A DNA stretch of 64,000 nucleotides from Crambe crambe. Taxonomy: Eukaryota; Porifera; Demospongiae; Poecilosclerida; Crambeidae. A model generated the notes under the pieces. That model was not told the DNA's origin. It ran no database searches and saw only the letters and a list, made by a program, of their open reading frames with translations. This document shows, one piece after another, positions 196-60,173 of the stretch; position 1 is the first letter of the stretch; every line of letters begins with the position of its first letter. A program made the position numbers and the translations under genes. The stretch is taken from contig OZ004587.1 of assembly GCA_963924555.1 (NCBI GenBank), positions 7,394,075 to 7,458,074 of the forward strand. The letters are read 5' to 3'.

Positions 196-356
196 ATTGT
201 GGAATGAAATGTCTTGATGCTTCTATTAATAAATGACTTACGCAGCTCCCACGAGTATCCTATTTTTGATAGTGTCAAAGTCCATGTTTTCGGAGAAGTA
301 GTCATACTCACTCTCGTTAATGTTGACGGACTCGGGGTACAGTCGGTAACTACCAG
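93..356 (-). CDS. Last two exons of an unidentified minus-strand gene
   Basis: Two exons are joined by readable splice sites on the minus strand: 242-356 and 93-150. The first follows a pyrimidine-rich tract ending in AG and stops at a GTAAGT donor. Its last partial codon (GC) is completed by the first base of the next exon, which runs to a TAG stop at 93-95. The joined C-terminus is acidic and polar (NESEYDYFSENMDFDTIKNR in the first exon) and ends in EENYSF. A minus-strand AATAAA at 11-16 is well placed as polyadenylation signal. I do not recognise the family. Upstream exons were not found with confidence; the signal-peptide exon at 8522-8645 could be the start of the same gene, but nothing proves it. 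Confidence 0.5.
158..195. repeat. (AAC)n microsatellite
   Basis: Perfect AAC triplet run lying inside the intron between the two minus-strand exons. Similar runs recur at 500-531 and 1695-1729. Confidence 0.9.
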
Positions 357-5280: not shown

Positions 5281-5498
5281 ACACCTCTCACTGATCGTTG
5301 CTACATAACAAGGCTCTGGGCATGTCCATGGGAGGAGCTCCTGCTGGCCCAGCCGGTACAGGTAAGACAGAGACCACCAAGGACATGGGGAAAGCTCTCG
5401 GAAAATATGTGGTGGTCTTCAACTGCTCTGATCAGATGGACTTCAGAGGTCTGGAAAGAATTTACAAAGGACTGGCTCAATCTGGAAGCTGGGGCTGC
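5281..5498 (+). pseudogene. Dynein heavy chain AAA1 fragment (broken)
   Basis: The translated fragment carries the AAA1 module of an axonemal-type dynein heavy chain: [10 protein letters not shown], then ALGMSMGG, the Walker A loop [10 protein letters not shown], and [17 protein letters not shown], ending at SGSWGC. A normal chain continues FDEFNRI after WGC; here the homology stops and unrelated sequence plus a CT repeat follow, with no GT donor. The pieces [10 protein letters not shown] and ALGMSMGG are in different frames, consistent with loss of about seven bases near 5308. The usual GLGRI reads GLERI. No flanking dynein exons were found. It looks like a duplicated exon or retrocopied fragment rather than part of a working motor gene. 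Confidence 0.8.
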
Positions 5499-5578
5499 AG
5501 TATCATATTCAGAAATGTTGTCAGTCCGATGAGCATTCCTAGCAAGGGGTTTAGATTACTAGAAAAATATCTCATACC

Positions 5579-5581
<3 letters not shown>

Positions 5582-5665
<84 letters not shown>

Positions 5666-5696
5666 ATGGGCTATACCCCCCCCCCCCCCCCCCCCG
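5582..5696. repeat. (CT)n / (CA)n / poly-C compound microsatellite
   Basis: A long CT run grades into CA and, a few bases later, a C homopolymer. It follows the dynein fragment directly. Confidence 0.95.
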
Positions 5697-6950
5697 GTTG
5701 CCAATGCCCAATATAAACACTTAATGTACCATGAAATAGATTTTGTCAACAATCTTCATACACTCCATCTCCACTAAGTGTGCAGTCACCATTAGCATTT
5801 GTAAAAACATAACTATCACTATTGTCTCTTACAACAAATGTAGAGTATATCAGTGTCATACCACCCTATTTAGTACCATATATAAACAAAAAAACACTAC
5901 CCATTGTACTCAGTGTTGAGATGAGTCGCTAATAAATCCTCAACCATACGTACATATGAAGCCCTAAAGGAGTTCATTGGTCCTAAGGGCATTTGCGCTC
6001 CATCCCCTGAGGGCTCAAAAAAAAACGAAAACAATTGCTCATAATGTATACTTCAAATTCTGAGATCAGGGATCAAATTCTGAGATCAGGAGTATGTACA
6101 CAGGATGTCATTATGCTTTTGCAATATCCAAAGGAATCTTTGTCAGGGTCCCCCTGTTCTGAAATCGCTGGTCAGGGGCAAAAAGGAAAGAAGCTGTATG
6201 CACAGTCATGGTACTGGCATACAAAATTTTTTTTAAAAAACAACTAAAAAACTAAAAAAACTTTAAAAACTTTTTAAAAACTGCAGGATCATTCTATGAT
6301 CTGAGGCAAGGACATAGAAATGTGACTTCACCATGCCATAATAGGTACATGATATGTATATGTACTGATTCAGAGCAGAACTGAACTGACAACCCAGGAA
6401 GTATAGTGGCTTCCTCGCTGGTTTTGGGGAGTAGAACTTCCTGTCGCCCTCTGCCACCGTAAACTTTAAAGGATCAAAGGAGGCATTGGAGGTTTCATGT
6501 GTGCAGAGAGTGCTTGCCTCAGCTTAACCTATGCTGTTACTCTTTCCTCAGCCTTGATGATATTATACACACCTGGTAGTTGTTTTTATTTTTTATTTTT
6601 TAATATAATTATTATCTTAGTTGGAAGATCATCATTGCATAACTGTAGTAAGCTTCAATTTCATGATTTCAGGTTCTTTAACGAGGAAATGACTGAGCTA
6701 AGAGTGAGTGGACTTCCCACAATTGCTACAAGATTGACGTTTGCTGGAGGATTCTCATGACAAAGTTAGATCACCATTGGATTTTGTGGATTTCCTCATG
6801 CTGATAATTTGGCCATGAGAAATAATCACTTTGTGTTTCTCGACAATCTTTGGAACGTGACAAAAAGCTGGACATGTCAGATTCATAAAGCTAGTCTCAC
6901 AATCTTTGGAACATGATGAGAAAAAAAAGTCGGGCATGCGCAAAGCCAGT

Positions 6951-8521: not shown

Positions 8522-8645
8522 CATTGTATCTCGTGGCATAGTTCCGTCCTTGTAGATAGCCGAGATCCCTCTGTATGGTCGCGGCGTTGTTGCGCTGAGA
8601 GACCAGAAGGATACATACTAAACTGATCACCGCAAACATCTTCAT
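8522..8645 (-). CDS. First coding exon of a secreted or membrane protein
   Basis: On the minus strand an ATG at 8643-8645 opens a 41-codon frame beginning MKMFAVISLVCILLVSQ, a clear signal peptide. It continues with a short mature segment, RDLGYLQGRNYATRYN, and ends with one extra base before a GTGAGC donor. A second in-frame ATG lies two codons in. The exon is head-to-head with the semaphorin-like gene at 9538, leaving about 890 bp between the two starts. I could not find the next exon; it must begin in phase 1, to the left. Family unknown. Confidence 0.6.
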
Positions 8646-9537: not shown

Positions 9538-11945
9538 ATGGAGTTATGCTACCTCTCACTGTTGTGCATGGTACTTAATATTAAGCTATCTTCAGCTGGT
9601 ACCCTGCCCGTTTACGGAAAACACCATCGAGTTCTCTACAATGACACATCTTGTAAGTTGCTTGCTAGCTACTAGCTTTATCTAGAGCCTTTATTAATCA
9701 TTTGAAGAGATCAAGCATAGCAAAATTTAAATCATCGCAAGTTGTATGACTTGTGACAGCCAGCATTCCAGCAATGTTGTGACTTCTAGTCTCCTCCACA
9801 TTTTTCTTCCATACATGTGGATAATTTTATACTCTCTGGGGAATGGATACTAGGCTACAATGTGCAACTGAAGATGCAGCAAATTGCACAAGAAAAAAAA
9901 ACAAACCAGAAGCCACACAGCTAAACTGGTTTAATCATTATCAAAAGCAGTCCGATCGAAGTATGTAGAGAGCACAGAGCAGTACTGTTATGCCCTTATT
10001 GTGAGAAGGCTTGATTCTCAGCTGTTTGAACCTGGATATACAAATTTAGCACTGCATGGTAATAATTTGCACGTTGCTTTTGAGGTAGTTCACAATGGTG
10101 GTGACAGACGTTATATACAAATTGATACACTTACTAGTAATAGGGTGAAAATAATGACTAATTAATATACGATATTTGTGTGTGGTTGTAGCAGTAAAAT
10201 GAACTACAATTTCAGTCAAGCTTTCTTAATTTAGTACTTCCAGCATCATTACCACAAGGGTATTGCACATCATGGCTGATTAAATCCTGTAATGTGATAC
10301 TATACGTCTATGTCCTGTGTGTTGAACCCAATTGGAAGTTGGTGTTTACTATCAAAGTTGAACAGGTGGAGAACTTAAAAAAACACCTGCATGTATGCTT
10401 AGGTAAATGCTCTGTGAGGCATTCAGAATGTGTGATGCAGTGGGAGCTTTCAATTCTTGACATTCTGTCTCTCAGAAACATGTCCCAATCTAATGTTCCT
10501 GTAGACAATAATGCATCTTCAATACAGATACATGAAGTGTTACAGCTTTGTCAGCAGATTCAGATCCCAATAGAGTCTGACATCCTCACAGGTGTGGACG
10601 TATACATTTTAGTGGTTACTACTTAATATTATGCAATAGCCACAGGGGAGACTTTAAAAATTCCTCATGTTTAAAGAGGTGTTGTCATGGAAGGAAGAGT
10701 GTTATACTATTCTCACTCCACTAGCTCTGAACATCAACTCAAGGAGGTTTCCTGACCAAGACGTCATCGCACCAGAAAACTTCAGCTATTTCTTCACAGA
10801 CTTGAGCTTCAGAAGTGGAATAAATGGATACATTCTCTCAGGAGCAGCGTAAGTATGGTATTCTTATTCATATCACGCGGCTGGGGATTTTTCCTTATAT
10901 GAACGTGTACTATTAACCTTATCAAAATTCATGGTGGTAATATGGAACTGAGCTAGCAATATTACAGTATATGTGTAATGGAGAAATGAATTCCATATGT
11001 AATAATTAATGTTATGACTAATACTGGGACTCCTTAGTGCTAAATGAGGACACTTCTCTTCAAAAGTGTTTCAATAATGTACACATGGAATGCTTTTATG
11101 TAGGGACACTCTGTTTCAGCTGGACTCTAACCTCAATATGGTGTCCAACTATGAATGGGAAAGGAATTCAACTCTAGAGGAAGGATGCACACGTTTTAAC
11201 TCTGTAAGTATTGGATAGTTACATGCCTTTATTATGGGCACACCTTTGTTAACCTAATATACGACAACCATAATAATTCCTTGGGGTAGAAGCCCAACAA
11301 AACAAAAAAACAACAAAACCAAAAAACAAACAAACAAACAAACAAAAAAACTAGCTAATCAGCTGCTGACTAACTCCTTTTTTTTTCTTTTTCTTTTTTT
11401 TGTTTTGTTTTTGGCCTGCCTCTTTTTCCTAGCTTATTCTGACAACTTTCATTAAGCCCCTGATAATAATAAGCTATAGGTAAGCCACCGTGTATAGATA
11501 TGCAAATATGTAATTTTGTTAGACCATAGGTATGGTTAGACGCTGCTACTTATGGTATTGGTCTAAGATGGGATGCCCATGTAGTTTCATATAAAAGTGT
11601 AAATGGAACCTTTAATATCGACTCTTCGAATTTGTTGTGATCAAAGCATATCAGTGACTAAATTGAGAGATGTACTTAAGAAGGCATGGATCTCCTACGT
11701 ACGTCTCTATAGGGAGTAAGGACAATACACTGAGCTCAACTAATATAGCAGGGCAATCGTCCTGGATTTTTACCACTTATAGAAAATCTATTTATTGCTT
11801 AATATGCAGACAGCTAGGAAGGGTACACACATATGCTGACTTCAATAAAATCACAAGCCATGTAGTAAACCTCAATTTGTAGAATACAGCAGATTACCTT
11901 GGTAACACAGAGACAGACTTATAATTAAAAGGAAGTTATATTAAT

Positions 11946-12020
<75 letters not shown>

Positions 12021-15000
12021 CTCCTCCAGCCTTACCTGTGCAAGAACTACATTCGAGTCCTCAAGAAAATTCCCACGCATACTAATTTATTACTGGTGTG
12101 TGGAACCATTTATGACCAAATTCCTCAATGCAGAACAATTGATGTGAGTTCAATAATGCAAGAGATGAACTGCAATCCTGTGAGAATATCATAATGCAAT
12201 GTAATCCATGTAAAATAAGCCCCATGGAACAGTCAGAAAAACATCCTTTATGATTGTGTCCTTTCACTATAAACTAAATTTAAAAAAACAAATGTGTTTA
12301 GACCACCTGTCTACACAGTTTTATCTCTTTCCGTGATAGCATGCACCCCTCCAATGATGTCACCTCTCTTATTTTATTAGGATTAATTTTGACCAACGCC
12401 TAATATTTAGATCAGGCCAATATAATAAAAAAAGGAGACCTATTTTCTATTCAGATTATAAAAGAGCCATTGAAAGGTCTCACAGCATTATTTTGAGATC
12501 TTTCCACTCTATTTGAGCCCATAGGTGATTGGCATGAACAGGCTTCACTACACAATGTTCCATAGAGGTGTAGCTTTGTTGCAAAAGTAATTACTCAATA
12601 CACTTTTATCCTAGACAAATTCAGTGGTATTCAGTAGACAATAGTCATTCACACTCAACTAAGTCTTCTCAACTATTCAGCCAGCTACCTACCTAAGTGG
12701 CTCAAGTAATAATGTCCTTGGCACATTACTTAGAAATCTCCTTGGTAAAACCATAATCCTCCTAGTATGTAAAGGAGTGTGATATGAATTGTACTATTCA
12801 TGTCACGAACAAACGGAATTCCGAGTTTCAGTGTAACGAGATCAGCATTTTGTAGCAGTTGTGTAGGTAGGAATGCCTTATCTACAATTGCGAGCTTTGA
12901 TTCTCTCTTAGTGAGGCTTCTTTCCAAAGATACTAGCATGAAATGGTCCCTGTAATGCTTAGTGAGGCTTCTTTCCAAAGATACTATCATGAAATGGTCC
13001 CTGTAATGCTCCTATGTGTGCTATGCAATATCATTAGCAGTGCAATATTCGATACACCAAGTTATGCTCCTGTGTGTGCTTTTTTAACCTTGATGCAAAG
13101 TGATACTATGTAATTAATGGTCTGCTGAAATGTAATATTAACGTACTATGTATAAATTATCACATGCCTTGAATTCTACAACATAGTGATTTCTCACACA
13201 CTGAAATGATCTCTTCCTCCTTCCTTGTTTAGATAAGTAGTGGAAATCTTGGAAATGCTTCTAATCCAGTTGGAGCAGGTGATGGCCTTGTGACATATTT
13301 CCCTGATGCTGCAGGATTTGGAGAATTTATTGATATAGGTGAATAGAACTGGAACTGTGGATGTGTATTTAGAAAATATAAAGTTGTTACTCCATTACAT
13401 AAAGAATTCAATGACTACAGTATACCCTCTTTATAAATTCGATGTAGATGGAACAGAGAATCGCTTCCTCTCTGCTGTTCTCCAAGCCAGAAACAGGGAC
13501 TTTGTTCTCTCATACCAAGATGTGGCATTCAATGACACAACAGATCCAAATACACTGCAGGTGTCCCAGCTCTTCAAAACCAGGCAAAATGATGACTATT
13601 GGCTCAGAAGTAAGCTTTAATTCTCTCATCATATTCAGTATACAGTACCTCATCAATTAGATTAATGCTAAAAAGGCAAATCGAGATTACCCCAACTTAT
13701 AGCATCATCAAGTTTAAATTAAGGATAGTAACATGAATATCCTATGTAGGTCAATAGCATTTGTAACTCATTGAATCATGTGTGCACTTGCACCATCATA
13801 CGCACACAGCCAGCCGGTCTCTCCACCACAAATTGTATCGTATTACAGTTTGTGGACTAATCATGTGCTTCCATAATCACTTGTTGTGACCGAGTTTGTC
13901 CGAGTTCAAGCTAAATCCGTGGCACAATTTCCTGCTCTCATCAATGATTGTGATACCAAGACAAACCAACCTTTAAATAGTATCCACCAATGTTATTGAC
14001 CAGACATGTTTTTCCATTGGAGGTCATTAATTTTGGTCACAGTTTCAACATTGCCATGATATCTATGTGGCCCAAGTAGTGTAGATCAAGTAATGGAGAG
14101 CTAAAGATGAAAAGGATAATCATTTTTTCATTTTTATTCTCTTAGCTCCAGTTACATTTGTGGACTATGCTCGTGTTGATTATCCTCAACTAAGGGCCCC
14201 TGGAGATCAAGACTTCTACTTTGTATTCCTGAGAGAGACTCACACCATCTTTTCTTCCAGAGAACCACAAGAGGTAACAAGTCTAGCTATGTGCATTTTC
14301 ATGAGGCAATAATACCTTTTGAAGGGATTTGGCAAAGATCCTAAGTCATATTATGCACTCAACTACTGAAATGTCTTTTCCCTTAAAATATTAAACTCTA
14401 GGATGCTAATTAATATATTATAGGTGAGTCCGTCATACTAAGGTAGACACTTTGGCTTCAAGTGCAACTAGCACCATGGCAGTTTATATTCAGTCGATCT
14501 TTTTATGGAAGAAACAGCCATTAGCACCTGTTTTCATAGATACATAATATATAGTGCACTTAAATTGATATTTCTGGTTGTAAACAGTCCAAATAGAAGC
14601 TATTGTTAGTACTGTTAACAGACATTTTATGGGTGCAGAAGATTTATGTGGGTTTCCTAAATGGTAGAGTGGAAGTACTGCATCCTCATTGGGATAGATA
14701 CTGAATGCCCACAAACCAGACCAGAAACCCCCCAAGTTGTTCTTATTTTGTTGTATATATTCCTTCTTAGATGATATACAGTCGAGTGGTGAGACTATGT
14801 CGAGTAAGTTTGCTTCATGTATACTACTAATCTACTAGGGGGGGGGGGGGGGGGGGGGGGGGATTCAACAGTGTATTTAAAAGGGCAAATGATAAATGGA
14901 GTGATATAATTATAGCATATCTATCAAAAGGAAAGAGGAGGTTTCAACAATTGGCCTGACAGATTACAACCATTTCAGATGCACTATAGATTAAAGGAAC

Positions 15001-18000
15001 CTCCCCTTCCATGCCTTGAATGGTCTTTTGACATAGTCTGTCCATGAACTAAATAAATCTATGTAATGGTTTGGCAATACATGTCATTTGGTTAGAGTAC
15101 CCTGTTCCCTTTCTAAGTGATGCATTCAAAGGAAATAGGTTTATAATTAATTTTATTAGAGAATACATTGTATTCACGGGAGTTCTGTTTCATACATCTG
15201 TCCATGTAATGATATAGAATGACCCTGGTTCCATGAGTGATAACTTCTTCTCAAATTACATAAAAGCAAGGATATTCTGTCAGTCACGTTCTCCTGCTGA
15301 GAATAGAACTGTTAACACTCTCAACTATCAATATAATGCAATAAGTAAGTGCTGTTGTATACTCTATAGTGTTATTCTGCGGGATATTTTTATGCTTTAA
15401 AAATCCACACAATTGTATTTAATGCAGCAAGTGCAAAGTTCAATGAAGAAGGAAGATATTATGACACTGGGTTATGGAATAAGAAGTTATATGGCGCATT
15501 CATAAGTTCAAGGTACAACAGTATAATAATGTTGGGTAGTACCCTTTTGATCATAGAGATAAGATTATACATAATTATTATTGTAATGAATATCCTTACA
15601 GCATCGGTCCCAGGGGTACGGCCATATGTGCTTATAATGCAAACCCCTTAACCATGCAAGGTGTCTATGAAGCATTCAGGAACGTTCTTGACTACACCAA
15701 TCGGCAGAATCCAACGGAAGTCGAAAGCAATTACCTTGAGTGCTCGGCCACCTCTCCCAGACCTGACAATATAGCAGGAGTACAGATTGAGAGTACTCAT
15801 CCCATCACCCAGATTGGGGAAAACCCTCTACTTATTATTAACGATGTCACGTAAGTATACAGTATACATTGCAATGTGAAAAAATAACAGCTCTAGCCAG
15901 CTAGCTCGAATATTAGTCAATTTGGTTTTTTAGCTCAGTCAAAATAAGCCAAAACTGTAGATTCAAATTCGAAGTCAAATGCAAGATTACATTCTACTGA
16001 AAGTACACAATTTGGATTTTAGAAAGGTTCTTTAACCTTCAAAATTGTATTTTATCCCTAGGGTGACACAGATATTGGTAGACGTCAAGTGTGTGGTGAC
16101 GAGCGCTGATTCAACTATATGCAGGAACCAAGACATCCTCTTCCTAGGCACTGGTAAGATGATTTCAGTCTAGGACTTACCAATATGTATCTTTATGATT
16201 ATCAGTCACTTTTTTTTTTGTTTTATAATTGCAGATCGAGGGAAGATTTTGAAGGTTGTATTTGCTACTAATGATCACCAGACTCGTGACATAGATCCAA
16301 TTATAGCTGAAGAGATTGAGGTAAGGTAACATAATATCAAGATTCCCCTTTCCACTATAATCACAGTTTTAATAGGACTTGTACTATAAATAGAGGGGAA
16401 CGTGGTAGACCATACAAGCAATAAAACTCCAAAAGAGCTCATCATTGATACTGTATTTCAATGGCTGATTTGTTTAATAATAGTGGTGTACACTTTCCCT
16501 CCATCCCCCCCCCCCCCCCTCAACTTCAGATGATAGTAATATTATTATTATTGAAAATTTTTTCCTTTTAGCTGGATGATGGCAATGCAGTGAATAAGAT
16601 GAGTAAGGAGGTAAGCTCACTATTAATTATTAAAAATTTTTTTACTGTGACTTCTCTTGTCAATACAAACTTGTAGAGAATAGGCACTAATGATGTCATA
16701 TTTGCTGCCACTGACTCTAAAATCTACCGTATACCCCTGGAGAGATGTGGTCGTCATGGCAGAATATGTAGCAGCTGCATATTATCACGTGACCCTTACT
16801 GTGTGTGGAATATCAATAGTCAGCAGTGTGAGGTCAGTCCATTTACTCTCACTGGCAGCGGTACAAGCACCGTCAGCTCTTCGTAAGTCAAATGCAGAGC
16901 GAGGTTATGTGTTTTTAACTATTATCTGTTTATTTGTAGGTATGTACAAAGTATTCATTCAGCAGCAACTTGTAAGCAAATTTAGCTCGATCACCCTGTA
17001 ATTTTAGTTAATTAATATTACGTATTTTGTTTTTTTAATCCTCAGATCCAGAGATCAGATTTAGTGAGGATGTGTATGTTGTCACGGAAGCCAATGGAAT
17101 GCTAACAGTGACGGTGGTCTCTAATTTCTCAGTATCAACAAATATCACACTTGAAATAACTTCATCTGATGGTACAGCACGAAGTACGTAAGCAGATTTG
17201 TTTCACTGCTTAATATGAAAATTCACTGATAATTGTACAGAGGTTTTCAGGTTGGTTGACACAAAATTTGCCAACAATGCAGAATTAAAATTCGTGCTCG
17301 CTAAATTTAAGACCATTGCATTTGTATGACAGTATATTTTACTCGCATGAATTTATTTTGCACATGCGCAAATTCTACTGGTCAACCAACCTGAAAACCT
17401 CTGTAGTGATATGCCCCAGTAGTACAGACCTGACAAACCCATGCCATTATAAGCATTAAGATCACTGATAATTGTTACTAGTATACTTTATATACAAACA
17501 CTAGGTGGCATTGATTTTGAAGCAGTATCTCGTACCGTAACCATTGGTCCTTCTCAAACACAAGTGACATTCGATGTGACGATTCGTCCAAACCAAGTAT
17601 TAGACTGCAGCAATAGGACGTTTACTTTAAACATGAGAGGAATTGGTAGTACCTGTGTCTTTGTCCCTGATAGTCAAGCCACTGTGGTAATTGTCGATAG
17701 CAATAGTAAGTGTATTTATTAAGGTATATAAGAATAATTTCCAAGGTCCCAAAGTGCCCACAATAGAGAGGTTTCACTGTACTTAGTGTATCTCTGTAAC
17801 AGTATTGAGGACACCTCTATACTAAGGACAGTTTTCAAGGTCCCAAAGTGTCCACAATAGAGAGGTTCCACTGTACTTTAGTGTATCATTCAACCTCTGT
17901 ATTGAGGACACCTCTATACTAAGGATAATTTCCAAGGTCCCAAAGTGTCCACAATAGAGAGGTTCCACTGTACTTTAAACCTCTGTATTGAGGACACCTC

Positions 18001-21000
18001 TATACTAAGGACAGTTTTCAAGGTCCCAAAGTGTCCACAATAGAGAGGTTCCACTGTACTTTAGTGTATCATTCAACCTCTGTATTGAGGACACCTCTAT
18101 ACTAAGGATAATTTCCAAGGTCCCAAAGTGTCCACAATAGAGAGGTTCCACTGTACTTTAAACCTCTGTATTGAGGACACCTCTATACTAAGGACAATTT
18201 CCAAGGTCCCAAAGTGACCACAATAGAGAGGTTCCACTGTACTTTAAACCTCTGTATTGAGGACACCTCTATACTAAGGACAATTTCCAAGGTCCCAAAG
18301 TGACCACAATAGAGAGGTTCCACTGTACTTTAAACCTCTGTATTGAGGACACCTCTATACTAAGGACAGTTTTCAAGGTCCCAAAGTGTCCACAATAGAG
18401 AGGTTCCACTGTACTTTAGTGTATCATTCAACCTCTGTATTGAGGACACCTCTATACTAAGGATAATTTCCAAGGTCCCAAAGTGTCCACAATAGAGAGG
18501 TTCCACTGTACTTTAAACCTCTGTATTGAGGACACCTCTATACTAAGGACAGTTTTCAAGGTCCCAAAGTGTCCACAATAGAGAGGTTCCACTGTACTTT
18601 AGTGTATCATTCAACCTCTGTATTGAGGACACCTCTATACTAAGGATAATTTCCAAGGTCCCAAAGTGTCCACAATAGAGAGGTTCCACTGTACTTTAAA
18701 CCTCTGTATTGAGGACACCTCTATACTAAGGACAATTTCCAAGGTCCCAAAGTGACCACAATAGAGAGGTTCCACTGTACTTTAAACCTCTGTATTGAGG
18801 ACACCTCTATACTAAGGACAGTTTTCAAGGTCCCAAAGTGTCCACAATAGAGAGGTTCCACTGTACTTTAGTGTATCATTCAACCTCTGTATTGAGGACA
18901 CCTCTATACTAAGGATAATTTCCAAGGTCCCAAAGTGTCCACAATAGAGAGGTTCCACTGTACTTTAAACCTCTGTATTGAGGACACCTCTATACTAAGG
19001 ACAATTTCCAAGGTCCCAAAGTGACCACAATAGAGAGGTTCCACTGTACTTTAAACCTCTGTATTGAGGACACCTCTATACTAAGGACAATTTCCAAGGT
19101 CCCAAAGTGACCACAATAGAGAGGTTCCACTGTACTTTAAACCTCTGTATTGAGGACACCTCTATACTAAGGACAGTTTTCAAGGTCCCAAAGTGTCCAC
19201 AATAGAGAGGTTCCACTGTACTTTAGTGTATCATTCAACCTCTGTATTGAGGACACCTCTATACTAAGGATAATTTCCAAGGTCCCAAAGTGTCCACAAT
19301 AGAGAGGTTCCACTGTACTTTAAACCTCTGTATTGAGGACACCTCTATACTAAGGACAATTTCCAAGGTCCCAAAGTGACCACAATAGAGAGGTTCCACT
19401 GTACTTTAAACCTCTGTATTGAGGACACCTCTATACTAAGGACAATTTCCAAGGTCCCAAAGTGACCACAATAGAGAGGTTCCACTGTACTTTAAACCTC
19501 TGTATTGAGGACACCTCTATACTAAGGACAATTTCCAAGGTCCCAAAGTGACCACAATAGAGAGGTTCCACTGTACTTTAAACCTCTGTATTGAGGACAC
19601 CTCTATACTAAGGACAGTTTTCAAGGTCCCAAAGTGTCCACAATAGAGAGGTTCCACTGTACTTTAGTGTATCATTCAACCTCTGTATTGAGGACACCTC
19701 TATACTAAGGATAATTTCCAAGGTCCCAAAGTGTCCACAATAGAGAGGTTCCACTGTACTTTAAACCTCTGTATTGAGGACACCTCTATACTAAGGACAA
19801 TTTCCAAGGTCCCAAAGTGTCCACAATAGAGAGGTTCCACTGTACTTTAGTGTATCATTCAACCTCTGTATTGAGGACACCTCTATACTAAGGACAATTT
19901 CAACGGTCCTAAAGTGTCAGTACATACCGGTATTTAACCTGCAGCTATAGACTTCAAAGTGTCCATATTACCCATAGCAACAATTGTTAATAATCTACAA
20001 TTCCACAGGTATGGCAATAGAGTTTTCATCAGCAAGTTATTCCATGGCTGAAGGAGACAGATTTGTAAATTTAACCGTAGAACGACGTATCATGAACACT
20101 ATGGATGTGAATTTTGTCATCAGCACAGAAAGTGGTTCAGCAGTAGGTAAGAGTGATCAGGTTACAATAATTTTGTGTCTGGTGAATCTCTGAACCATGG
20201 TGACGATTAGCGTCTGGCACGACATGATGAAATTATAAGGTACCGTGGTTACGTCCATATATGGGTCCCTCAATTTGTTGGATTACCATGGTGATCTCAA
20301 TTAGGTGATGTGGTAATGGTAGTGTGGGACTCTGGTTCATGTAGCCAATGGTAATCATGGTGTTGTGGTGACAATAATTTACGTAGTTCTTCAATGTAGT
20401 TAGCTAATGCATCTTTGATAAACCACTTATCCTACCATGGCAACAATTCCTTTCAGTAATTAAAGTAATGGATCCCTCTAATCGAGTCTGTTGTACCAAA
20501 GATCCCCATAGTACGTTGCTACTTAGAAATTTTACTGAAATGATTATGTGAAGCTGAAGGTCCAAAGTACATCTGTACTCCAATTCGTTGCATGTCCTCA
20601 GAGCCTCTATACTCCATTTTGTTGTGTATCCTTTTGTCTAGCATTTAATATGCAACATTATTTTATATCTACAGCTCCCGATGATTACTCCACCCTAACA
20701 GCTAGTCTTCTCACGTTCACAGCTAACAGCGGTGATGGTAGCATCACGTATACTCTACCAATAGTAAACGACAATTTGGCAGAGGGTGATGAAACTTTCA
20801 CGGTGATACTGGCACTGCCATCGTCCATTAATACTTGTCAAGATGGAGGTGGGATAATGATCGGAGGCATCTCTCAGGCTGTGGTTACAATTCTGGATGA
20901 TGATTGTAAGAAAGGGTCACGAGTAAAGTTCCATGATAGAATACCTTGTTTTGTTCTGAACGCCTGAATAAGTATAACATTTTCTTCAATTTCGAAAGCG

Positions 21001-21025
21001 CGCAGGAATTGATTTTGGAGATATT

Positions 21026-21085
<60 letters not shown>

Positions 21086-24000
21086 ATTCCTTTTCTTCAA
21101 TCTTTCATCTACGATATTATACGATAAGAAACCTCCATTCCTTCATAGATATCCTCATTGGTTTTGAAGTCTCTAATTACACTTTCACTGAAAGGAGTAC
21201 TACTTCATCATATGGAATTCTTATTGAAAAATTTGGAACCAATGCTGTTCCAATTACAGTAGAAATCCGCTTAGAATCTGGCAGTGGCAGTAACAGAGCC
21301 ACAAGCAATGACTCTAGCCTAGTCAATACAAGTGTAACTTTTGGTCCTGCTGATGTGACTAAAGAAGTGAATGTGATGATCTTTAGTGATGAGGATGTGG
21401 AGAATACTGAAACATTTACTCTTCGATTAGCCGTCCTACCCAACACGAGAGTAAATCTGGTACCAGAAAGAAATTCAACAGTAATTAACATCTTAGACCA
21501 AGACTGTAAGTTTTTTTTTTAATGAATGTGTACAATAATGGGGAGCTATGATTAATTATAACTTTTACTTCCTCAGCTGTAACAATTGGATTTATTGGTG
21601 CTACTAACTACAATGTGTCTGAAAGCAGTGGAACTCTTAATTTGACTGTTGGTATTCTTAGTGGTTCTATTGCAGTGCCTGTTGTTGTCACATACTCAAC
21701 AATTGCTGGCGAGGCTTCAGGTATGTGCTGGAGTATTAAGGCTAATTTTGATACAGCAGGACCTTCGAACAATGGAACCTAGCCTTTTGTCCTTTTATAG
21801 AAAGTTTGTGTCCTCTTTTGAGAGGTTATTTTGTATAGAGTGTATATACAATGGTACTTTTAGATTGTCCTTTGTTGACCTCTTTCAGAGAGGCTTCACT
21901 ACATTTTGGGTCATAAGCTCCAATAATTAATTATAGACATGGCTAAGATAATGCTTCTATTTATTCCTTAGAGTCTGATGACTATTCCATTGATAGTGGA
22001 ACGATGGATATTTCATTCACACCCCAGGGAGCATCAAATAGTACTATTCAAATCCGAATCATCAATGATAATGTCTTCGAAAACCTCCTGGAATCATTTT
22101 CAGTGGTCTTGGCTACAAATGACAGCAAAGTTTTACTGGATCCTCAGCATACCAGAGCTTTAGTCAACATAATGGATGCAAATGGTACATTATAAAAATA
22201 AGATCTATATTAATACTTGCTTGGATGGGTTTCCTATACCTACACATGTCAAGTTTGTTTATAAATACGTAGGTGTCACCTTGGGATTTCAAGGACCAAG
22301 CAGCATATCAGCATTTGAATCTGATAATTCAGTTGACGTGACTGTAGTATTGCAAGGAAAGACAGCCATTGAGGTTGATTTCTACTTGTCCACCGTCAAT
22401 GGATCAGCTTATGGTAAGAAAGCCTATCTGGAAATAAATTAAAGTAGTAGCCAATTTGAATCATTACCACTTGACTTGATAGGTAATGAGGACTTTGCTC
22501 CTGTGATATCTCAACTTTTAACCTTCTCGGGTGATAGTAATGCGGCCACTCAACAATACAGCATTTTCTTAGTCGATGATCAAGTGTTAGAGATGGAAGA
22601 GACATTCCGGGTGGTTATATCTACCAATGACAATCGGATCATGCTGCAGCAAAATTCTGTCGACATTACGATCAGAGATAACGATGGTGAGGAATACTCA
22701 TGCAGCTCCACTGTTTCTTCAGTTTTCAGTGGTTGGGGTTTCAGCCTTTCACTCATTTCGAAAATCCTCCAGCTCTGTTAATACATACATAATTAATAAG
22801 CTGTAGTGTCATAAATCACATTCTAATGTCATACAAATCACATTCCCTTTTTTTATTGATAAAAGGCAGTCATTATAGTCCTCAAAAATAAAATTAAAAT
22901 TAGCAAAAAAAGATCGTGACTCACGAATAATTTTTATTATGAGTGTGCGTACTTCACTAGCGTATTGCGTGAAAAATTATTTTCATAGTTACGTATGATA
23001 TTATACTTGCGTACTCTATTTAGGAGTTCAGAACAGTTATATGGAGAATTTGACTTTTTTCATTTTATTATCGTAATCTTTAACTCTGATTTTTCTCTGC
23101 AGATGTCTATTTTGGATTCGAGTCTTCATCCTACACATTTTCAGAAGGTGACAGGACTAGAGGGATCCGAATTACCAAATTTGGTTTCAATGCTATCCCC
23201 CTGAATGTCGCCTTCACCACTAAGGGAAATACTGCAATCCAGAATGATTTTAATGTTACATCATCATCAAATATCACTTTTGGAAAATGGGACAGAGAAT
23301 ATGTCATTAACTTGACCATCACACAAGACAACTTTTTTGAGGGAACTGAGTCATTTTTCATGACTATGATGTTGAGTGCTTCGAGCAATAGCCGGGTAAC
23401 TGTGCAAAGAAATTCCACGGAAGTCTATATTTCGGACAGTTCAGGTGAGCTACATGGTGTCCTGATTATGGGATACAGAAAAGTCTCCAAATCTATAAAG
23501 CATTTTCAGGGAGTTCACATTGATTATATTGATGCTATTATACATACAGTTTTGCAGATCGGCTTTAGTTCTACTGTATACACAGTCATGGAAAGCCGTG
23601 GCAGTGTACAAGTCACCATCACAATACTCAATGATATTTCACTCAATATCCCAGTCTCTGTACACCTGCAACCTTCGAGTTGTACAGCAATAGGTATATA
23701 ATAACATAATTAAGCAAGAAATAGTACAAGGCATCTGACAACCATTGATGCAATGTTTTTGTTGATTATGCATGGCTTTTATAGAGAGAATCTAGCTACT
23801 TTTGGGAAAGGGATGAAATACTCACTTTGATATACTAATGCATGCTTTTGTTATTATTATTATTTTTATAGCTGGAATAGACTTTGATGGCAATGCAATA
23901 CCCCTCACACTCGATGCCAACGGCAGCAGTACTTTCTCTGCAAATATAACCATTATGGATGATGACGTATTGGAGGCCTCAATGGAAGCCTTTGACATTA

Positions 24001-25802
24001 CCCTAGCAGTAAACAATAGTAGAATTCAAGTGGATCCGGCAAGAAGTGTTGCTAGAATTAGTATTATGGATGATGATAGTAAGTTTAACATAGTTGACAC
24101 TATTATTACTTCACTTTTAAACTCCAATAGCGAATATCTTTCAGTTTGCAAGCAGAGACTACAGCATATATGAATCCAATTGCTCCGTATCGCTAAGAAT
24201 TATGAGAATCGGGAACTCTTCCATCCCTGTCACCCTTCTCTTGGAAATTTCAAATATCACAAACACAGATTATAAATATGTACAATCTCGGCAGCAAGTG
24301 GTACGATTTGAACCTGGAGAAGCATACAAGGAGGTTGATGTATCAATTTTAGTCAATACAAATGAAAACAGAAATGAACGTTTTGCAGCTAGTTTGTTGA
24401 AGGACAGTAATGATGAGAGAATAGTATTGAATGAATGGAATACTAATGTTACGATACTGGATGACACATATATTTCATGTAAGTTGTTGCTTTTTGTTGT
24501 TGTTGTTGTTGTTGTTGTTTGTTTTTGTTTTTTATTTTTTGCTTCAGTGCTAGAAATCACCATAGATATCCACTCTATAATATTTAAACCACTGAAATTA
24601 TTATGCTCAACTATTTCCTCACATGTACATTCTGGTATCTAGTACAGTAGTACTCATTAGGATAGTACCTCTAATGTGCTAACATTATCTGCAGGTCCTA
24701 CAGTTACTTGTTCAGTACCACCTACAGTAAGAACTTTCACAACCGAAGCACTAATCAATGTAGGCGGACTGGAGGGCGACACATCAGGCAGTATTTATAA
24801 CAGCATTGGAGCATCAGTAGGGGTACTCATCATTCTCTTACTGATCATTGTGGCTCTGGCTATCACTGTGGGGATACTGGCTCTATTTCTCTGTAAAAAG
24901 GATAACGTAATATTTAAGCAAAAATATAATAAGTAAGTGATAACTAATTATTTTAGTTGTTATTGTCATCTGCTTTTCTTATCAATATTTTTTAGGAAAG
25001 TGATTGCCAGCCCTGAGGACAACCCATCGAAACGAAAAAGTCCATTGCCAGGAGACCTGGAACTCTCAACAACCTACCCTAATCAGAGCTTTTGTGACTG
25101 TAACTCTGACTCTCCACCATCAGGTAACCATTTTCTCAGAGTACGAGTATAGCAAGCTCGGCCTCTAGATAACAAGTATGGCTAACTGAGGTGGAACCTC
25201 CATATGTGATAGTACTTGAGAAAAGGGGTCTTATCGTGCAAAACATTAAGTATAACTCGGGAACAAAATGGGGTATCAATTGGATTTAAAAACCATATAA
25301 ATCTCCAGATCAAGAGCTTTAGAATGATACCAATAACTCCGTTTTGAATTTTTGCTCCATAGGACCCCTTTTCTCAAGTACTATCACATAATTATGATAC
25401 CCAGCCTTTAGTCCTTGGTAGATCCTCTATGGAGATCATTAATTTAGCATATTATGGATTGTCCTTTGTTGAGAGATTTATCCTCTTTTTTTTGGAGTGT
25501 CCTTTAATTATTGGAGGTTTCACAGTACACTTGGAACAAACTATTATCAGCTGTAGTTTATTATGCATAACTTTATTATGGCAATAGGTCATAATGAGAT
25601 GTTAGAGAAGACTGATCTTTCATCACAGAAAAAAGAAGGTGAGACCACTGAAGAAGATAAAAGCACATTCAGCACCAGTCATTTCCTTCATGTCAAGCGT
25701 ACCTCCCATGAGTTACAACATAGTGATGTGTCAACCACATCCAGTGAGAATTCACCTCCCCCTGACAAAAATGGTAGTAATACTGAAGTGTCATCTCTAT
25801 AG
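9538..25802 (+). CDS. Sema-PSI-(Calx-beta)x8 single-pass membrane protein
   Basis: 32 exons, all phases consistent, 1728 codons: 9538-9652, 10725-10848, 11104-11203, 12030-12143, 13233-13338, 13448-13609, 14146-14273, 14771-14803, 15218-15344, 15428-15512, 15602-15850, 16062-16153, 16235-16320, 16572-16610, 16677-16882, 16940-16971, 17046-17183, 17505-17705, 20009-20146, 20675-20905, 21149-21505, 21577-21720, 21972-22184, 22273-22413, 22483-22686, 23103-23444, 23550-23693, 23872-24078, 24131-24478, 24695-24932, 24996-25123, 25588-25802. Signal peptide 1-21. Sema about 45-540, with semaphorin hallmarks (GAADTLFQLDS, NYIRVL, LLVCGT, YSRVVRLC, ILFLGT). PSI about 541-573, with RDPYCVW. Eight Calx-beta repeats 600-1535 (DDY, ETF and DDD-type motifs). 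Membrane helix about 1577-1601 after a Thr-rich stalk, then a tail of about 127 residues with no kinase or plexin GAP domain. Probably a cell-surface guidance or adhesion receptor; the function is inference. The smallest exons (33, 32 and 39 bp) are the least certain. Confidence 0.85.
11949..12020. repeat. (CT)n(AT)n microsatellite abutting an exon
   Basis: CT then AT runs end only nine bases before the fourth semaphorin-like exon at 12030, so the repeat lies in the polypyrimidine region of that splice acceptor. Confidence 0.9.
14838..14862. repeat. Poly-G tract in intron
   Basis: Uninterrupted G run, intronic to the semaphorin-like gene. Confidence 0.95.
17236..17405. mobile_element. Intronic MITE with terminal inverted repeats
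   Basis: The left end reads TACAGAGGTTTTCAGGTTGG and the right end is its reverse complement (CCAACCTGAAAACCTCTGTA). The element is about 170 bp, has no coding capacity, and sits between exons 17 and 18 of the semaphorin-like gene. Its ends resemble the hairpin elements at 27.5-27.9 kb and 29.9 kb. Confidence 0.8.
17740..19915. repeat. Higher-order tandem array in intron
   Basis: About 23 units of 86 or 97 bp lie between exons 18 and 19. Three variants can be told apart. X (97 bp) has GGACAGTTTTC and the insertion GTGTATCATTC. Y (86 bp) has GGATAATTTCC. Z (86 bp) has GGACAATTTCC with GTGACC in place of GTGTCC. The order is XY XY ZZ XY XY Z XY ZZ XY ZZZ XY Z', so X is always followed by Y. 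Every unit ends with GAGGTTCCACTGTAC, a word shared with a dispersed repeat family in the window. Confidence 0.95.
21027..21083. repeat. (TTTC)n microsatellite
   Basis: Perfect tetranucleotide run just upstream of the exon at 21149. Confidence 0.95.
21757..21905. repeat. Dispersed GGAACCTC-family repeat, intronic copy
   Basis: Contains CCTTTTGTCCTTT, the phrase TAGAGTGTATATACAA and CTTTCAGAGAGGCTTC, matching the copies at 43245-43378 and 45215-45388. It is non-coding and lies between exons 22 and 23 of the semaphorin-like gene. Confidence 0.7.
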
Positions 25803-31196: not shown

Positions 31197-31522
31197 AACC
31201 ATTTTTTGGATTTGGTCGGACAAAATGTCCTATCAAACTGAAACTCACACTGACTGTAGTAATGGGCCACATGAAGGATACAAGTTAAAATCAAAATGTT
31301 TGCACAATTAAATTTCGCTTAAAGGTTGCACATTACAATCGGTAGAACAACTGATGATAATGCCTTGCATTTTTTGCAGAAATAGCAAGCTGTAAACCTT
31401 ATGTGCATGTGCACGAACTTTAAATGCGTATCTTGCAAATGTATGAACGGTTAACTCACACCTTTCATTGGTTATTCATTATCATCTTTATAATTTTGAC
31501 TATTAGGGTGCAATTATTGAAG

Positions 31523-32860
31523 ATGGGCATGCGTACATTGGGAATCATATGCCTACTCACAGGCATAGTCATAGGCTACTTACTTCTAAGTGCAAGATTT
31601 AAAAGTCTAACATATCATCATTACAAACCAGTATCATCAGTCTGGAGGAACTTTAACCATCAGCAATCGACTCCCATCCATATGAACCAAACTGCCGATA
31701 AACCTCATAATAAATCTGGCTACGTCATAAAATCTGGCTATGGCTACATCATGGCTACACACTATTCAGATCAACTTAGAGCAGGTATGATTAACATATT
31801 TTCCATTCAGTGTTGGGCAGCATCACTGAGAGACAATCTCAGAGTGGTCCTCCCTTTTCTTCGAGATGGTTCACACCATGGTATCGATCTCTCACTGCTT
31901 GCTAACACCAGCTCAACGAAAAAAGATGGTCCTACACTTTTTGATTTAACTGATGAAGATACGTGGATGAGACATGTTGAAAGAAGGAAATTTACTCCAT
32001 TTGTTACATGGGATTATTTCTTGAACGATGCACCCAGGAAATTAATCTTGGTGGACCACTATTGCACTAAGATTGGAGACGCTTTTCGTGATGCTGCCAC
32101 AAAGTTTGCAGAGCAGCATGGATTCGAAATCATAAGGAGCATCTGTAATCCAGCTACTAAGGTACTATCACCAGGAGAATTCAGAACATTAGTGTATGAT
32201 GGAAATATTCCCCATGAAGTGGTCGTTATTTTCTATTTATACGGTGGACTTGATGCAGCTCCAACAGAAATTAGTAGAAAATATCGTGTTGGGGTTTCTG
32301 GTTTACAATATTGTACTAGGAGTGGGAATTTCCAGATGGTCCCAGTCAGCAGGAGGATTAGAAAAAATACCAAACAGTACATCCAAAAGTATCTCTCAGT
32401 GAAGAAAGGCTATGTTGCAGTGATGGCGAGATTTGAAAAACTCTTCATTAAATTTCATTTAGGACCACTTGTTAAGAAACGACTGGAGAAAGGTGGCAAG
32501 TGTATTGATAGTATCATTAATAGGATTAAATCTGATAACATTTTCTTAGCCATGGACAGTTGCAAATATGGCACAGATACCTATAGAAACGGTAAATTAA
32601 AGGCTTCCAATCAACTTGCTAAGCAGCTCTTTGGCAAACTTTTTGGCAGCAGATCAGTTACCTATGAACAATGGGAGAGTTCATTTGAAGATATATCTGA
32701 CTTTAAGGATCCTGGTTATATAGCCACTCTCCAACTGAACATTGCAGCCAATGCTGACATGTTACTGCTTGCAGGTGGAGGGAGTTTCCAGGAGTATGCA
32801 GTACAAATGATGGATTCGAGACATTCAAGAGCTAAACATATTTTTGTAGCAAACTGCTGA
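31523..32860 (+). CDS. Type II membrane protein, putative glycosyltransferase, paralogue 1
   Basis: Single-exon frame of 445 codons. The N-terminus MGMRTLGIICLL starts a signal-anchor helix (about 5-23), then a Ser/Asn/His-rich stem, then a conserved core opening at about residue 73 with YIMATHYSDQLRAG and QCWAASLRDNLRVVLPF. Near the C-terminus are VAVMARFEKLF, MDSCKYGT and NIAANADMLLLAGGGSFQ. This layout is that of a Golgi lumenal enzyme. The late Ala-Asp-Leu-Gly segment loosely recalls the donor-site region of fucosyltransferase-fold enzymes, but that is a guess. An in-frame ATG exists upstream at 31424. I prefer 31523 because all four copies align from M(G/S)MR and an acceptor-like TTTGACTATTAG precedes it, suggesting a 5' untranslated exon. 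Confidence 0.75.
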   Translation: MGMRTLGIICLLTGIVIGYLLLSARFKSLTYHHYKPVSSVWRNFNHQQSTPIHMNQTADKPHNKSGYVIKSGYGYIMATHYSDQLRAGMINIFSIQCWAASLRDNLRVVLPFLRDGSHHGIDLSLLANTSSTKKDGPTLFDLTDEDTWMRHVERRKFTPFVTWDYFLNDAPRKLILVDHYCTKIGDAFRDAATKFAEQHGFEIIRSICNPATKVLSPGEFRTLVYDGNIPHEVVVIFYLYGGLDAAPTEISRKYRVGVSGLQYCTRSGNFQMVPVSRRIRKNTKQYIQKYLSVKKGYVAVMARFEKLFIKFHLGPLVKKRLEKGGKCIDSIINRIKSDNIFLAMDSCKYGTDTYRNGKLKASNQLAKQLFGKLFGSRSVTYEQWESSFEDISDFKDPGYIATLQLNIAANADMLLLAGGGSFQEYAVQMMDSRHSRAKHIFVANC

Positions 32861-33430
32861 TATAATTATTATTTTCTAAATTATGTATGCGCATGCGCGC
32901 GTTGTGATAAACAAGTCTTGGACTCCGCCCCTAATGTATAAATTAGGTCAAAGGTCAAAAGTAAGAGAGAGCAGCTAAGCCTCTGATCGACGCTCATAGC
33001 TGTCAACCGTCCAGGGTTTCCTTGAATTGTCCAGGGATTTGGCCGTATGTCCTGGAATTTATTCATAGTGGCCGAAGTTAGTAAGCTACAGTACTGTCAT
33101 AGCTACTAGTAAATAATTGGCTTGCATATCAACTGCTCTCAAAGGATTTTCTGTGATCTGCTAAGAAAGAAGTTTAGCTAAGTAGTCCATAAAGGGTCAT
33201 CTGATGCTAGCTAGACTGCCTAGTCCATTTTTTTATGAATGTCATAGAACTGGTAAAATAGTGAAATCTATTAAAGATTTTGACTTCCAGCAGTTGGCAG
33301 ATAAGTGGTAGGTAGATAGATAGATAGGTAGGTAGGTAGCAATGTATAGCTATAGGTGGATCTTCCCATTTACATAATTATAGCCATAATTATCATGGGT
33401 GGCATTTTGTTCGTGGCTTGTCTACAATTA

Positions 33431-33641
33431 AGGTAAAGCGGGGCTATTTCGAACGGCGGGTAATTCCGTATTGTTCAAATATTTCTGAAACTACTGAAGC
33501 TTCTGAGCTCAATGTTGTAGGATATAATCTACTATAATAGTAGAATATACCTTTCAAATTAGACCTCATAAGCTCAAGGAGTTTTGAAAATATTTGACCC
33601 TACGGAATAGCCCCACCGTTCGGAATAGCCCCGCTTTGCCT
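33431..33641. mobile_element. TA-flanked MITE (AGGTAAAGCGGGG ends)
   Basis: The ends are AGGTAAAGCGGGGC and GCCCCGCTTTGCCT, near-perfect inverted repeats flanked by TA on both sides. The corresponding site in unit B reads ACAATTACCAGC with a single TA, an exact empty site. Size is 211 bp with no coding capacity. TA duplication is typical of Tc1/mariner-type transposition. Confidence 0.9.
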
Positions 33642-33675
33642 TACCAGCTTGGTGATCTTGGAATTTTTTAATTAG

Positions 33676-35711
33676 CCATAGCTACTCATCAACACTCAAT
33701 AAATTAAATCTACCATGGGAGTCTTATTTACTGCATCAGTGACTATGCTTCTACTTAGCTATCAAGCTAGCTACTAATTATCATCTTTATAATTTTGACT
33801 ATTAGGGTGCAATTATTGAAGATGGGCATGCGTACATTGGGAAATATGTACCTACTCACAGGCATAGTCATAGGCTACTTACTTCTAAGTGCAAGATTTA
33901 AACGTCTAACATATCATCATTACAAACCAGTATCATCACGGAGGAACTTCAACCATCAGCAATCGACTCCCAGCCATGCAAACCAAACTACCGATAAACC
34001 TCATAATAAATCTGGCCATGGCTACATCATGGCTACACACTATTCAGATCAACTTAGAGCAGGTATGATTAACGTATTCTCCATTCAGTGTTGGGTAGCA
34101 TCACTGAAAGACAATCTCAGAGTGGTCCTCCCATTTCTTCGAGATGGTTCACATCATGGTATCGATCTCTCACTGCTTGCTAACACCAGCTCGACGAAAA
34201 AAGATGGTCCTACACTTTTCGATTTAACTGACGAAGATTCGTGGATAAGACATGTTAAAAGAAGGAAATTTACTCCATTTGTTACATGGGATTATTTCTT
34301 GAAGGATGCACCCAGGAAATTAATCTTGGTGGACTACTATTGCACTAAGATTAGAGAAGCTTTTCGTGATGCTGCCACAAAGTTTGCAGAGCAGCATGGA
34401 TTCGAAATCATAAGGAACGTCTGTAATCCAGCTACTAAGGTACTATCACCAGGAGAATTCAGAACATTAGTGTATGATGGAAATATTCCCCATGAAGTGG
34501 TCGTTATTTTCTATTTATACGGTGGAATTGATGCAGCTCGGGTTTCTGGTTTACGACATTGTAGTAGGAGTAGGAACGTCCAGATGGTCCCAGTCAGCAT
34601 GAGGATTAGAAACAATACAAAGCAGTACATCCAAAAGTATCTCTCAGTGAAGAAAGGCTATGTTGCAGTGATGGCGAGATTTGAACAACTCTTCATTAAA
34701 TTTCATTTAGGACCACTTGTTAAGAAACGACTGGAGAAAGGTGGCAAGTGTATTGATAGTATCATTAATAGGATTAAATCTGATAACATTTTCTTAGCCA
34801 TGGACAGTTGCAAATATGGCACAGATACCTATAGAAACGGTAAATTAAAGGCTTCCAATCAACTTGCTAAGCAGCTCTTTGGCAAACTTTTTGGCAGCAG
34901 ATCAGTTACCTATGAACAATGGGAGAGTTCATTTGAAGATATATCTGACTTTAAGGATCCTGGTTATATAGCCACTCTCCAACTGAACATTGCAGCCAAT
35001 GCTGACATGTTACTGCTTGCAGGTGGAGGGAGTTTCCAGGAGTATGCAGTACAAATGATGGATTCGAGACATTCAAGAGCTAAACATATTTTTGTAGCAA
35101 ACTGCTGATATAATTATTATTTTCTTAATTATGTATGCGCATGCGCGCGTTGTGATAAACAAGTCTTGGACTCCGCCCCTAATGTATAAATTAGGTCAAA
35201 GGTCAAAAGTAAGAGAGAGCAGCTAAGCCTCTGATCGACGCTCATAGCTGTCAACCGTCCAGGGTTTCCCTGGATTGTCCAGGGATTTGGCCGTATGTCC
35301 TGGAATTTATTCATAGTGGCCGAAGTTAGTAAGCTACAGTACTGTCATAGCTACTAGTAAATAATTGGCTTGCATATCAACTGCTCTCAAAGGATTTTCT
35401 GTGATCCGCTAAGAAAGAAGTTTAGCTAAGTAGTCCATAAAGGGTCATCTGATGCTAGCTAGACTGCCTAATCCATTTTTTTTATGAATGTCATAGAACT
35501 GGTAAAATAGTGAAATCTATTAAAGATTTTGACTTCCAGCAGTTGGCAGATAAGTGGTAGGTAGATAGATAGGTAGGTAGGTAGGTAGCAATGTATAGCT
35601 ATAGGTGGATCTTCCCCATTTACATAATTATAGCCATAATTATCATGGGTGGCATTTTGTTCGTGGCTTGTCTACAATTACCAGCTTGGTGATCTTGGAA
35701 TTTTTTAATTA
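33676..35711. repeat. Segmental duplication unit B
   Basis: Begins with GCCATAGCTACTCATC-type sequence upstream of paralogue 2; the same sequence resumes at 36201 upstream of paralogue 3. The repeat period before later insertions is therefore about 2.0 kb. Confidence 0.8.
33822..35108 (+). CDS. Type II membrane protein, putative glycosyltransferase, paralogue 2 (chimeric)
   Basis: Single-exon frame of 428 codons, with start chosen by alignment to paralogue 1. The N-terminal half follows paralogue 3 (stem HANQTTDKPHNKSG; IRHVKRRKF; MRIRNNTKQ). From about 34650 the protein is the same as paralogue 1 to the last residue apart from one Lys-to-Gln change (RFEQLF), and the 3' flank also matches paralogue 1. 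About ten residues present in paralogues 1 and 3 (PTEISRKYRV-like, after GGIDAA) are missing near 34537, an in-frame deletion. The core and C-terminal motifs are intact, so it may still be made. The mosaic pattern points to unequal exchange or gene conversion. Confidence 0.72.
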   Translation: MGMRTLGNMYLLTGIVIGYLLLSARFKRLTYHHYKPVSSRRNFNHQQSTPSHANQTTDKPHNKSGHGYIMATHYSDQLRAGMINVFSIQCWVASLKDNLRVVLPFLRDGSHHGIDLSLLANTSSTKKDGPTLFDLTDEDSWIRHVKRRKFTPFVTWDYFLKDAPRKLILVDYYCTKIREAFRDAATKFAEQHGFEIIRNVCNPATKVLSPGEFRTLVYDGNIPHEVVVIFYLYGGIDAARVSGLRHCSRSRNVQMVPVSMRIRNNTKQYIQKYLSVKKGYVAVMARFEQLFIKFHLGPLVKKRLEKGGKCIDSIINRIKSDNIFLAMDSCKYGTDTYRNGKLKASNQLAKQLFGKLFGSRSVTYEQWESSFEDISDFKDPGYIATLQLNIAANADMLLLAGGGSFQEYAVQMMDSRHSRAKHIFVANC

Positions 35712-36198: not shown

Positions 36199-36346
36199 TA
36201 GCCATAGCTACTCATCGACACTCAATAAATTAAATCTACCATGGGAGTCTTATTTACTGCACAGTGACTATGCTTCTACTTAGCTATCAAGCTAGCTACT
36301 AATTATCATCTTTATAATTTTGACTATTAGGGTGCAATTATTGAAG

Positions 36347-37702: not shown

Positions 37703-37714
37703 TAATCATGTTTG

Positions 37715-39612: not shown

Positions 39613-39645
39613 ATGCAGGGCATCATGCAAGTGCAACCAAAAACA

Positions 39646-57616: not shown

Positions 57617-57756
57617 TATCGTGTTGATAAGTTCTTTTTAGCTTTCCTAGCCATAGCACTGATCCTTTCCTGGCGTGGCCCGACTTATTGTGTAAACAGA
57701 AGCATTAATTTTTGCTTCGGCACCGGAGTGCCGAGGCGCAGTGCCGGGATCAACTA

Positions 57757-60144: not shown

Positions 60145-60173
60145 TACTTTCCATTCCATTTTTAGACTAGCAG

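Follow-up and report, generated by a model that had tools for sequence, protein, structure and literature searches.

Is a Sema-PSI head followed by a row of Calx-beta repeats one molecule and, if so, of what kind? A gene of the sponge Crambe crambe raises this question. It lies in a 64,000-nucleotide stretch of DNA (hereafter the window; C10:7394075-7458074, on one of the 119 contigs of the 143.14-Mb assembly that we searched). We confirm that the predicted product of this gene is a Sema-PSI-Calx-beta membrane protein, in which a signal peptide (judged by eye) precedes Sema and PSI, and eight Calx-beta repeats lead to a single membrane helix with a short tail behind it.

A Sema-PSI head on eight Calx-beta repeats

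The window gene, assembled by hand from the sequence and checked by script, comprises 32 exons at 9538-25802 (+) with 5,187 nt of coding sequence for 1,728 amino acids. All 31 introns have a GT donor and an AG acceptor with consistent phases, and the reading frame contains a single stop, at its end. The Sema domain is called by Pfam (1.8e-13), whose model matches only the C-terminal part (amino acids 350-517). In a comparison with Protein Data Bank (PDB) structures the match to Semaphorin-2A spans residues 39-516 of the 520 queried, and paralogous Sema domains align over nearly the whole head. PSI follows directly (Pfam 1e-06, above cut-off, amino acids 543-573, 30 of 52 profile positions). 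All eight Calx-beta repeats score above the curated Pfam cut-off (33.7-63.8 bits; cut-off 27). Pfam was run on nine pieces, eight from the window protein and one from a gene on contig C65. An initial annotation of this DNA had proposed a complete Sema domain, PSI, eight Calx-beta modules and one membrane helix, an architecture borne out by Pfam, structure matches and hydropathy; the Pfam check that it suggested calls Sema and places PSI and every repeat above cut-off.

The exons of the Calx-beta array (17-29) are all of phase 1-1 (13/13). R3, R6 and R8 each occupy a single exon, and one intron interrupts each of the other five repeats. The membrane helix is placed at about amino acids 1574-1602 (hydropathy, renumbered from a 34-exon model). 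The same scan gives a weaker flag inside repeat 4, reaching 1.81 vs 3.42 for the helix, and does not flag the N terminus, where a signal peptide is probable by eye. The cytoplasmic tail of about 126 amino acids has no Pfam domain above cut-off and ends in EVSSL, which we take to fit the class I PDZ-binding pattern. The 34-exon model also had an open frame but was dropped, since nothing homologous backs its exons 2-3 and they have no parallel in the sister gene described below. The 32-exon model was adopted because exon 1 joins the exon at 10725 in frame (phase 1), copying the structure of the paralog. The two models differ only by 102 extra amino acids before Sema in the longer one, the sequence of which underlies the tail Pfam scan, hydropathy, shuffle test, Sema alignment and repeat scan around the C11 gene.

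The introns between PSI, the link exon and the first Calx-beta exon measure 57 and 74 nt, and neither contains AATAAA or ATTAAA. These introns leave no room for the 3' end of one gene plus the promoter and signal-peptide exon of the next, so two genes are unlikely. In the 32-exon numbering these are exons 15-17, as in the initial annotation, which had asked whether one transcript crosses them. Given the short introns, the fitting phases and the junction in the paralog, the Sema-PSI and Calx-beta parts are very probably transcribed as one unit.

The paralog, or sister gene, lies head-to-head with the window gene, starts at 8645 on the reverse strand, and leaves the window to extend to C10:7383204. 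Its product of 1,035 amino acids has a probable signal peptide, Sema, PSI, a link exon, one Calx-beta-like domain, a membrane helix and a tail. Pfam calls Sema (4.5e-09) and PSI (8.9e-06) in a 955-amino-acid version with the first two exons left off. The sister link exon (38 nt) has the same phases as the 32-nt link exon of the window gene, and the Calx-beta-like domain is encoded by two phase 1-1 exons. This domain, which we read as a degenerate Calx-beta, reaches 30.6 bits against a model made from the window gene's eight repeats; 2,000 shuffles reached 11.0 at most. Because the sister repeat matches this model, the Sema-PSI-link-Calx-beta junction is present twice. Between the sister's Calx-beta and its helix lie about 145 amino acids (C10:7383749-7384334 (-)) with no Pfam family at E 1. 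Within the sister's 8.2-kb first intron, at 5295-5774 (+), lies a fragment of a dynein heavy chain motor (AAA_6 in Pfam, 4.2e-29), either a gene piece or a pseudogene.

Origin of the head and of the stalk

A Sema profile search of the genome gave four matches and missed the window gene, the exons of which are short, and Sema gene counts are therefore lower bounds. By protein search the Sema head occurs at six or more places, namely the window gene, its sister, contigs C11 and C13, and C65 twice, besides PSI-sized matches on C8. The C13 gene and the two C65 genes are intronless and encode Sema-PSI with a hydrophobic stretch (Pfam was run on C13 and one C65 copy). The near-identical C65 copies, at positions 310-2286 and 650-2713 of their respective loci, are about 10 kb apart on a contig of 18.6 kb. 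The C11 gene is part-assembled, with 13 exons built and positions 10745-14771 of its joined stretch left open. After its PSI, fn3 matches twice (5e-13) in an open stretch that ends in a hydrophobic segment, and a fibronectin type III (FNIII) stalk is assigned by position.

Sema identity is 38.9-42.8% within the trio of window, sister and C11 genes, and 22.8-27.2% between the trio and C13 and C65. Compared by alignment column and phase, 11 of the sister's 12 Sema introns lie within 5 columns of a window-gene intron (9 exact), as do 10 of 12 in C11 within 6 columns (8 exact), an agreement biased upward by the choice of C11 and sister exon ends with the window gene in view. A five-row tree supports the trio (100/99) and the pairing of window and sister genes (86/93). 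In this comparison, made up of genes from the sponge itself and no published Sema-FN sequence, the window head and the FNIII-stalked C11 gene are judged to share ancestry. Sema-FN has been described in choanoflagellates, the sponge Amphimedon and the placozoan Trichoplax, and is perhaps among the earliest semaphorin forms (PMC6374515). Most simply, a Sema-FN gene would have swapped its stalk for Calx-beta ahead of the split between the window gene and its sister. The Calx-beta model of the window repeats, applied to 30 kb around the C11 gene, detected none (best E 4.2). Among prokaryote genomes, 69 stretches matched a pattern and none encodes a relative, an expected result that says nothing on animals.

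The window repeats are 17-37% identical to each other, suggesting that the array is old. In the repeat tree none of six inner branches is strongly supported; the single-exon R3, R6 and R8 group together (82/90) and the sister's repeat has no clear counterpart among the window repeats. Used as a single query, repeats 2-7 match NCX/CALX calcium-binding domains, and R7 aligns to Drosophila CALX CBD1. The latter has nine acidic positions that presumably act as calcium ligands, at which R1 to R8 keep 4, 7, 7, 5, 7, 5, 9 and 4 acidic residues and the sister repeat 5. By these residues R7 looks competent to bind calcium and the stalk ends, R1 and R8, do not, making a partly calcium-dependent stalk possible. 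Of the calcium-dependent stiffness suggested initially, the part that stands is compatibility for some repeats, R7 with 9/9 among them; it does not carry over to R1 and R8.

The favoured reading and its rivals

We consider it probable, with moderate confidence, that the window gene encodes a single-pass transmembrane semaphorin whose head is of Sema-FN lineage and whose FNIII stalk has been replaced by Calx-beta, with eight repeats here and one, degenerate, in the sister. What we infer about the plexin partner, stalk exchange, calcium stiffening and any function of the window protein is conditional throughout. The Sema head would bind a plexin on a neighbouring cell. Given the size of a Calx-beta module, the stalk would hold this head tens of nanometres above the membrane, where calcium might stiffen it at some joints, and the short cytoplasmic tail might anchor the protein or signal back.

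Several points weigh against this reading, beginning with the two provisos given above, the choice of exon ends and the part-assembled C11 gene with its stalk assigned by position. Pfam reports no Calx-beta in the sister protein, even at E 1. By identity the window head stands slightly closer to C11, at 42.8%, with 38.9% for the sister; in the five-row tree the C13 and C65 branches are flagged as long and the window-sister branch falls below the program's mark for strong support. The direction of the exchange, from FNIII to Calx-beta, would be set by the published Sema-FN class. With R1 and R8 keeping four of nine acidic positions, and R4 and R6 five, calcium binding by the entire stalk lacks support.

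It is also conceivable, though in our view unlikely, that the protein serves mainly in adhesion or self-recognition, with a Calx-beta stalk as in sponge aggregation factors and a Sema head for homophilic contact. Calx-beta is found outside the cell in these factors, whose roles are adhesion and allorecognition (PMC10815962). The best-scoring Calx-beta relatives outside the window gene lie in an array on C10 about 0.85 Mb from it and are 28-38% identical. However, in our genome search for Calx-beta, which scored 150 of 1,021 candidates and did not have the window's own repeats among the matches listed, about 110 of the roughly 150 listed matches are on C10 anyway, making nearness weak evidence, and that the C10 arrays may be aggregation factors is a guess. 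Large arrays of Calx-beta matches occupy C10:6130000-6576000. In another sponge, Halichondria panicea, two genes are up 6 h after lipopolysaccharide, one of the plexin group and one with a Sema domain (PMC8242945). We treat the aggregation-factor and lipopolysaccharide parallels as leads for the window gene, not as tests.

More doubtful is a truncated plexin-like receptor. The window protein does combine Sema-PSI, one helix and a short tail, and four plexins of Amphimedon are likewise short on the intracellular side (PMC6374515). For the window Sema domain, however, semaphorins hold the top ranks in the PDB comparison (best Semaphorin-3A, 5.5e-23) and even the weakest one listed, Semaphorin-7A (3.5e-10), outranks the best listed plexin (6.6e-9). 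Neither IPT/TIG nor the plexin cytoplasmic (GAP) domain is called by Pfam in the window protein, and the homologous C11 gene bears FNIII, as Sema-FN does. The 51 plexin cytoplasmic-domain matches in the genome are all clustered elsewhere, at C8:8055467-8423774, and probably represent several tandem plexin genes. The head is thus by sequence a semaphorin, not a plexin. The ranking, the missing plexin and IPT calls and the separate C8 cluster place the protein on the ligand side: a plexin ligand or contact molecule appears likelier than a plexin-like receptor, with reverse signalling possible, and the label of receptor in the initial annotation becomes doubtful.

That two adjacent genes were merged on paper only, one for a Sema-PSI semaphorin and the other for a membrane protein with Calx-beta, is very improbable: the single-transcript claim does rest on genomic sequence, which weighs against our reading, most listed genomic Calx-beta matches share contig C10 with the window gene, and a break is physically possible in the minisatellite-filled 2.3-kb intron after repeat 1 (the sole intron above 1 kb in the repeat array), but that intron contains no AATAAA or ATTAAA, a scan of it for hydrophobic exons with an ATG and a phase-1 donor gave none, the border between PSI and Calx-beta runs through its short introns in fitting phases without a stop, and the sister gene carries the same junction.

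The locus, its significance and known systems

The features of the two genes within the window are collected in Table 1.

Table 1. Positions in the window of the exons and repeats of the window gene and of the sister gene
Feature	Position	Strand	Basis or remark
Sister gene, exon 2	242..356	-	gene continues beyond window
Sister gene, exon 1: signal peptide probable by eye	8522..8645	-	893 bp between the two start codons
Exon 1: translation start; signal peptide probable by eye	9538..9652	+	donor gtaagt, phase 1, intron placed as in paralog
Exons 2-15: Sema propeller, then PSI in exon 15 (16677-16882)	10725..16882	+	Pfam, PDB matches
Link exon 16 (32 nt; phase 2 to 1)	16940..16971	+	flanking introns 57, 74 nt
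Exons 17-18: Calx-beta repeat 1, split	17046..17705	+	Pfam 49.4 bits
Intron 18: 86-bp minisatellite, 22.7 copies from 17892; longer periods from 17725	17725..19918	+	
Exons 19-20: Calx-beta repeat 2, split	20009..20905	+	Pfam 60.2 bits
Exon 21: Calx-beta repeat 3, single exon	21149..21505	+	Pfam 44.2 bits
Exons 22-23: Calx-beta repeat 4, split	21577..22184	+	Pfam 63.8 bits
Exons 24-25: Calx-beta repeat 5, split	22273..22686	+	Pfam 53.7 bits
Exon 26: Calx-beta repeat 6, single exon	23103..23444	+	Pfam 41.3 bits
Exons 27-28: Calx-beta repeat 7, split	23550..24078	+	Pfam 52.9 bits
Exon 29: Calx-beta repeat 8, single exon	24131..24478	+	Pfam 33.7 bits
Exon 30: juxtamembrane segment and membrane helix	24695..24932	+	hydropathy, gene model
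Exons 31-32: cytoplasmic tail, ...EVSSL, stop	24996..25802	+	gene model

The exact 22-base core of the intron 18 minisatellite is present in two of the 57 genomic loci examined, both overlapping the window gene. Downstream, the window contains four tandem intronless open reading frames of 445-481 amino acids (31424-40965 (+)), mutually similar by eye, three of which were scanned and have no Pfam match at 0.001. A filamin-like gene in one open frame (45334-48417 (+)) has two CH domains and six filamin repeats, and two further open reading frames resemble GT92 (56258-57637 (-)) and core-2/I-branching (60171-61574 (+)) glycosyltransferases.

A survey of early-animal semaphorins lists FNIII, immunoglobulin and thrombospondin stalks, and 'Calx' is absent from its main text (PMC6374515). 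The initial annotation had named only the last two as following PSI in semaphorins, which is incomplete in view of the FNIII-stalked Sema-FN described there. The available text of PMC8242945, PMC11788884 and PMC5460417 does not describe a fusion of Sema and Calx-beta. The novelty claimed initially holds for the open-access papers searched, in which we found no such fusion, and does not extend to eukaryotic protein sequence databases, which lay outside the search. Within that scope, what is new is the Calx-beta stalk; the Sema-PSI head is known.

Semaphorin classes are set apart by the modules after the Sema-PSI head, and a Calx-beta stalk would add a class. Three genes in one genome, with mostly common introns and different stalks, would illustrate how classes may arise by phase-1 module exchange. 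As a tentative proposal, a separate class, 'Sema-CalxB', might exist in which a sponge Sema-FN lost FNIII and took up Calx-beta, a module type that would serve calcium-dependent self-recognition in aggregation factors; such a protein would tie the recognition of cells, in an animal without nerves, to signalling by plexins. The host being a sponge, the description as an early-animal protein is apt, and the window gene offers a concrete molecule for asking what semaphorin-plexin contact did before axons.

Sponge aggregation factors are secreted proteoglycan core proteins that are not known to contain Sema or PSI. The window protein, which has a membrane helix, shares with them extracellular Calx-beta in a sponge (PMC10815962). 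With plexins it has Sema, PSI and one helix in common, but its similarity to them is lower and neither IPT nor a plexin cytoplasmic domain is called. No Na/Ca exchanger, integrin beta-4 or Fras/Frem protein is known to have a Sema domain. The window protein differs from NCX/CALX, integrin beta-4 (PMC11788884) and Fras/Frem (PMC5460417) in its extracellular tandem of eight, and resembles them in Calx-beta by sequence, with R7 keeping all nine acidic positions of CBD1. The C13 and C65 genes likewise encode Sema, PSI and one helix (by eye), comparable to Amphimedon Sema-1A to 1C (PMC6374515), but they are intronless, have no stalk modules called and are 23-27% identical to the trio. From Sema-FN the window protein differs in its stalk of eight Calx-beta repeats, in which neither fn3 nor SEA is called. 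With Sema-FN it shares an N-terminal Sema and PSI, extracellular modules and one helix without a conserved cytoplasmic domain, and by sequence it looks like this known class carrying another stalk.

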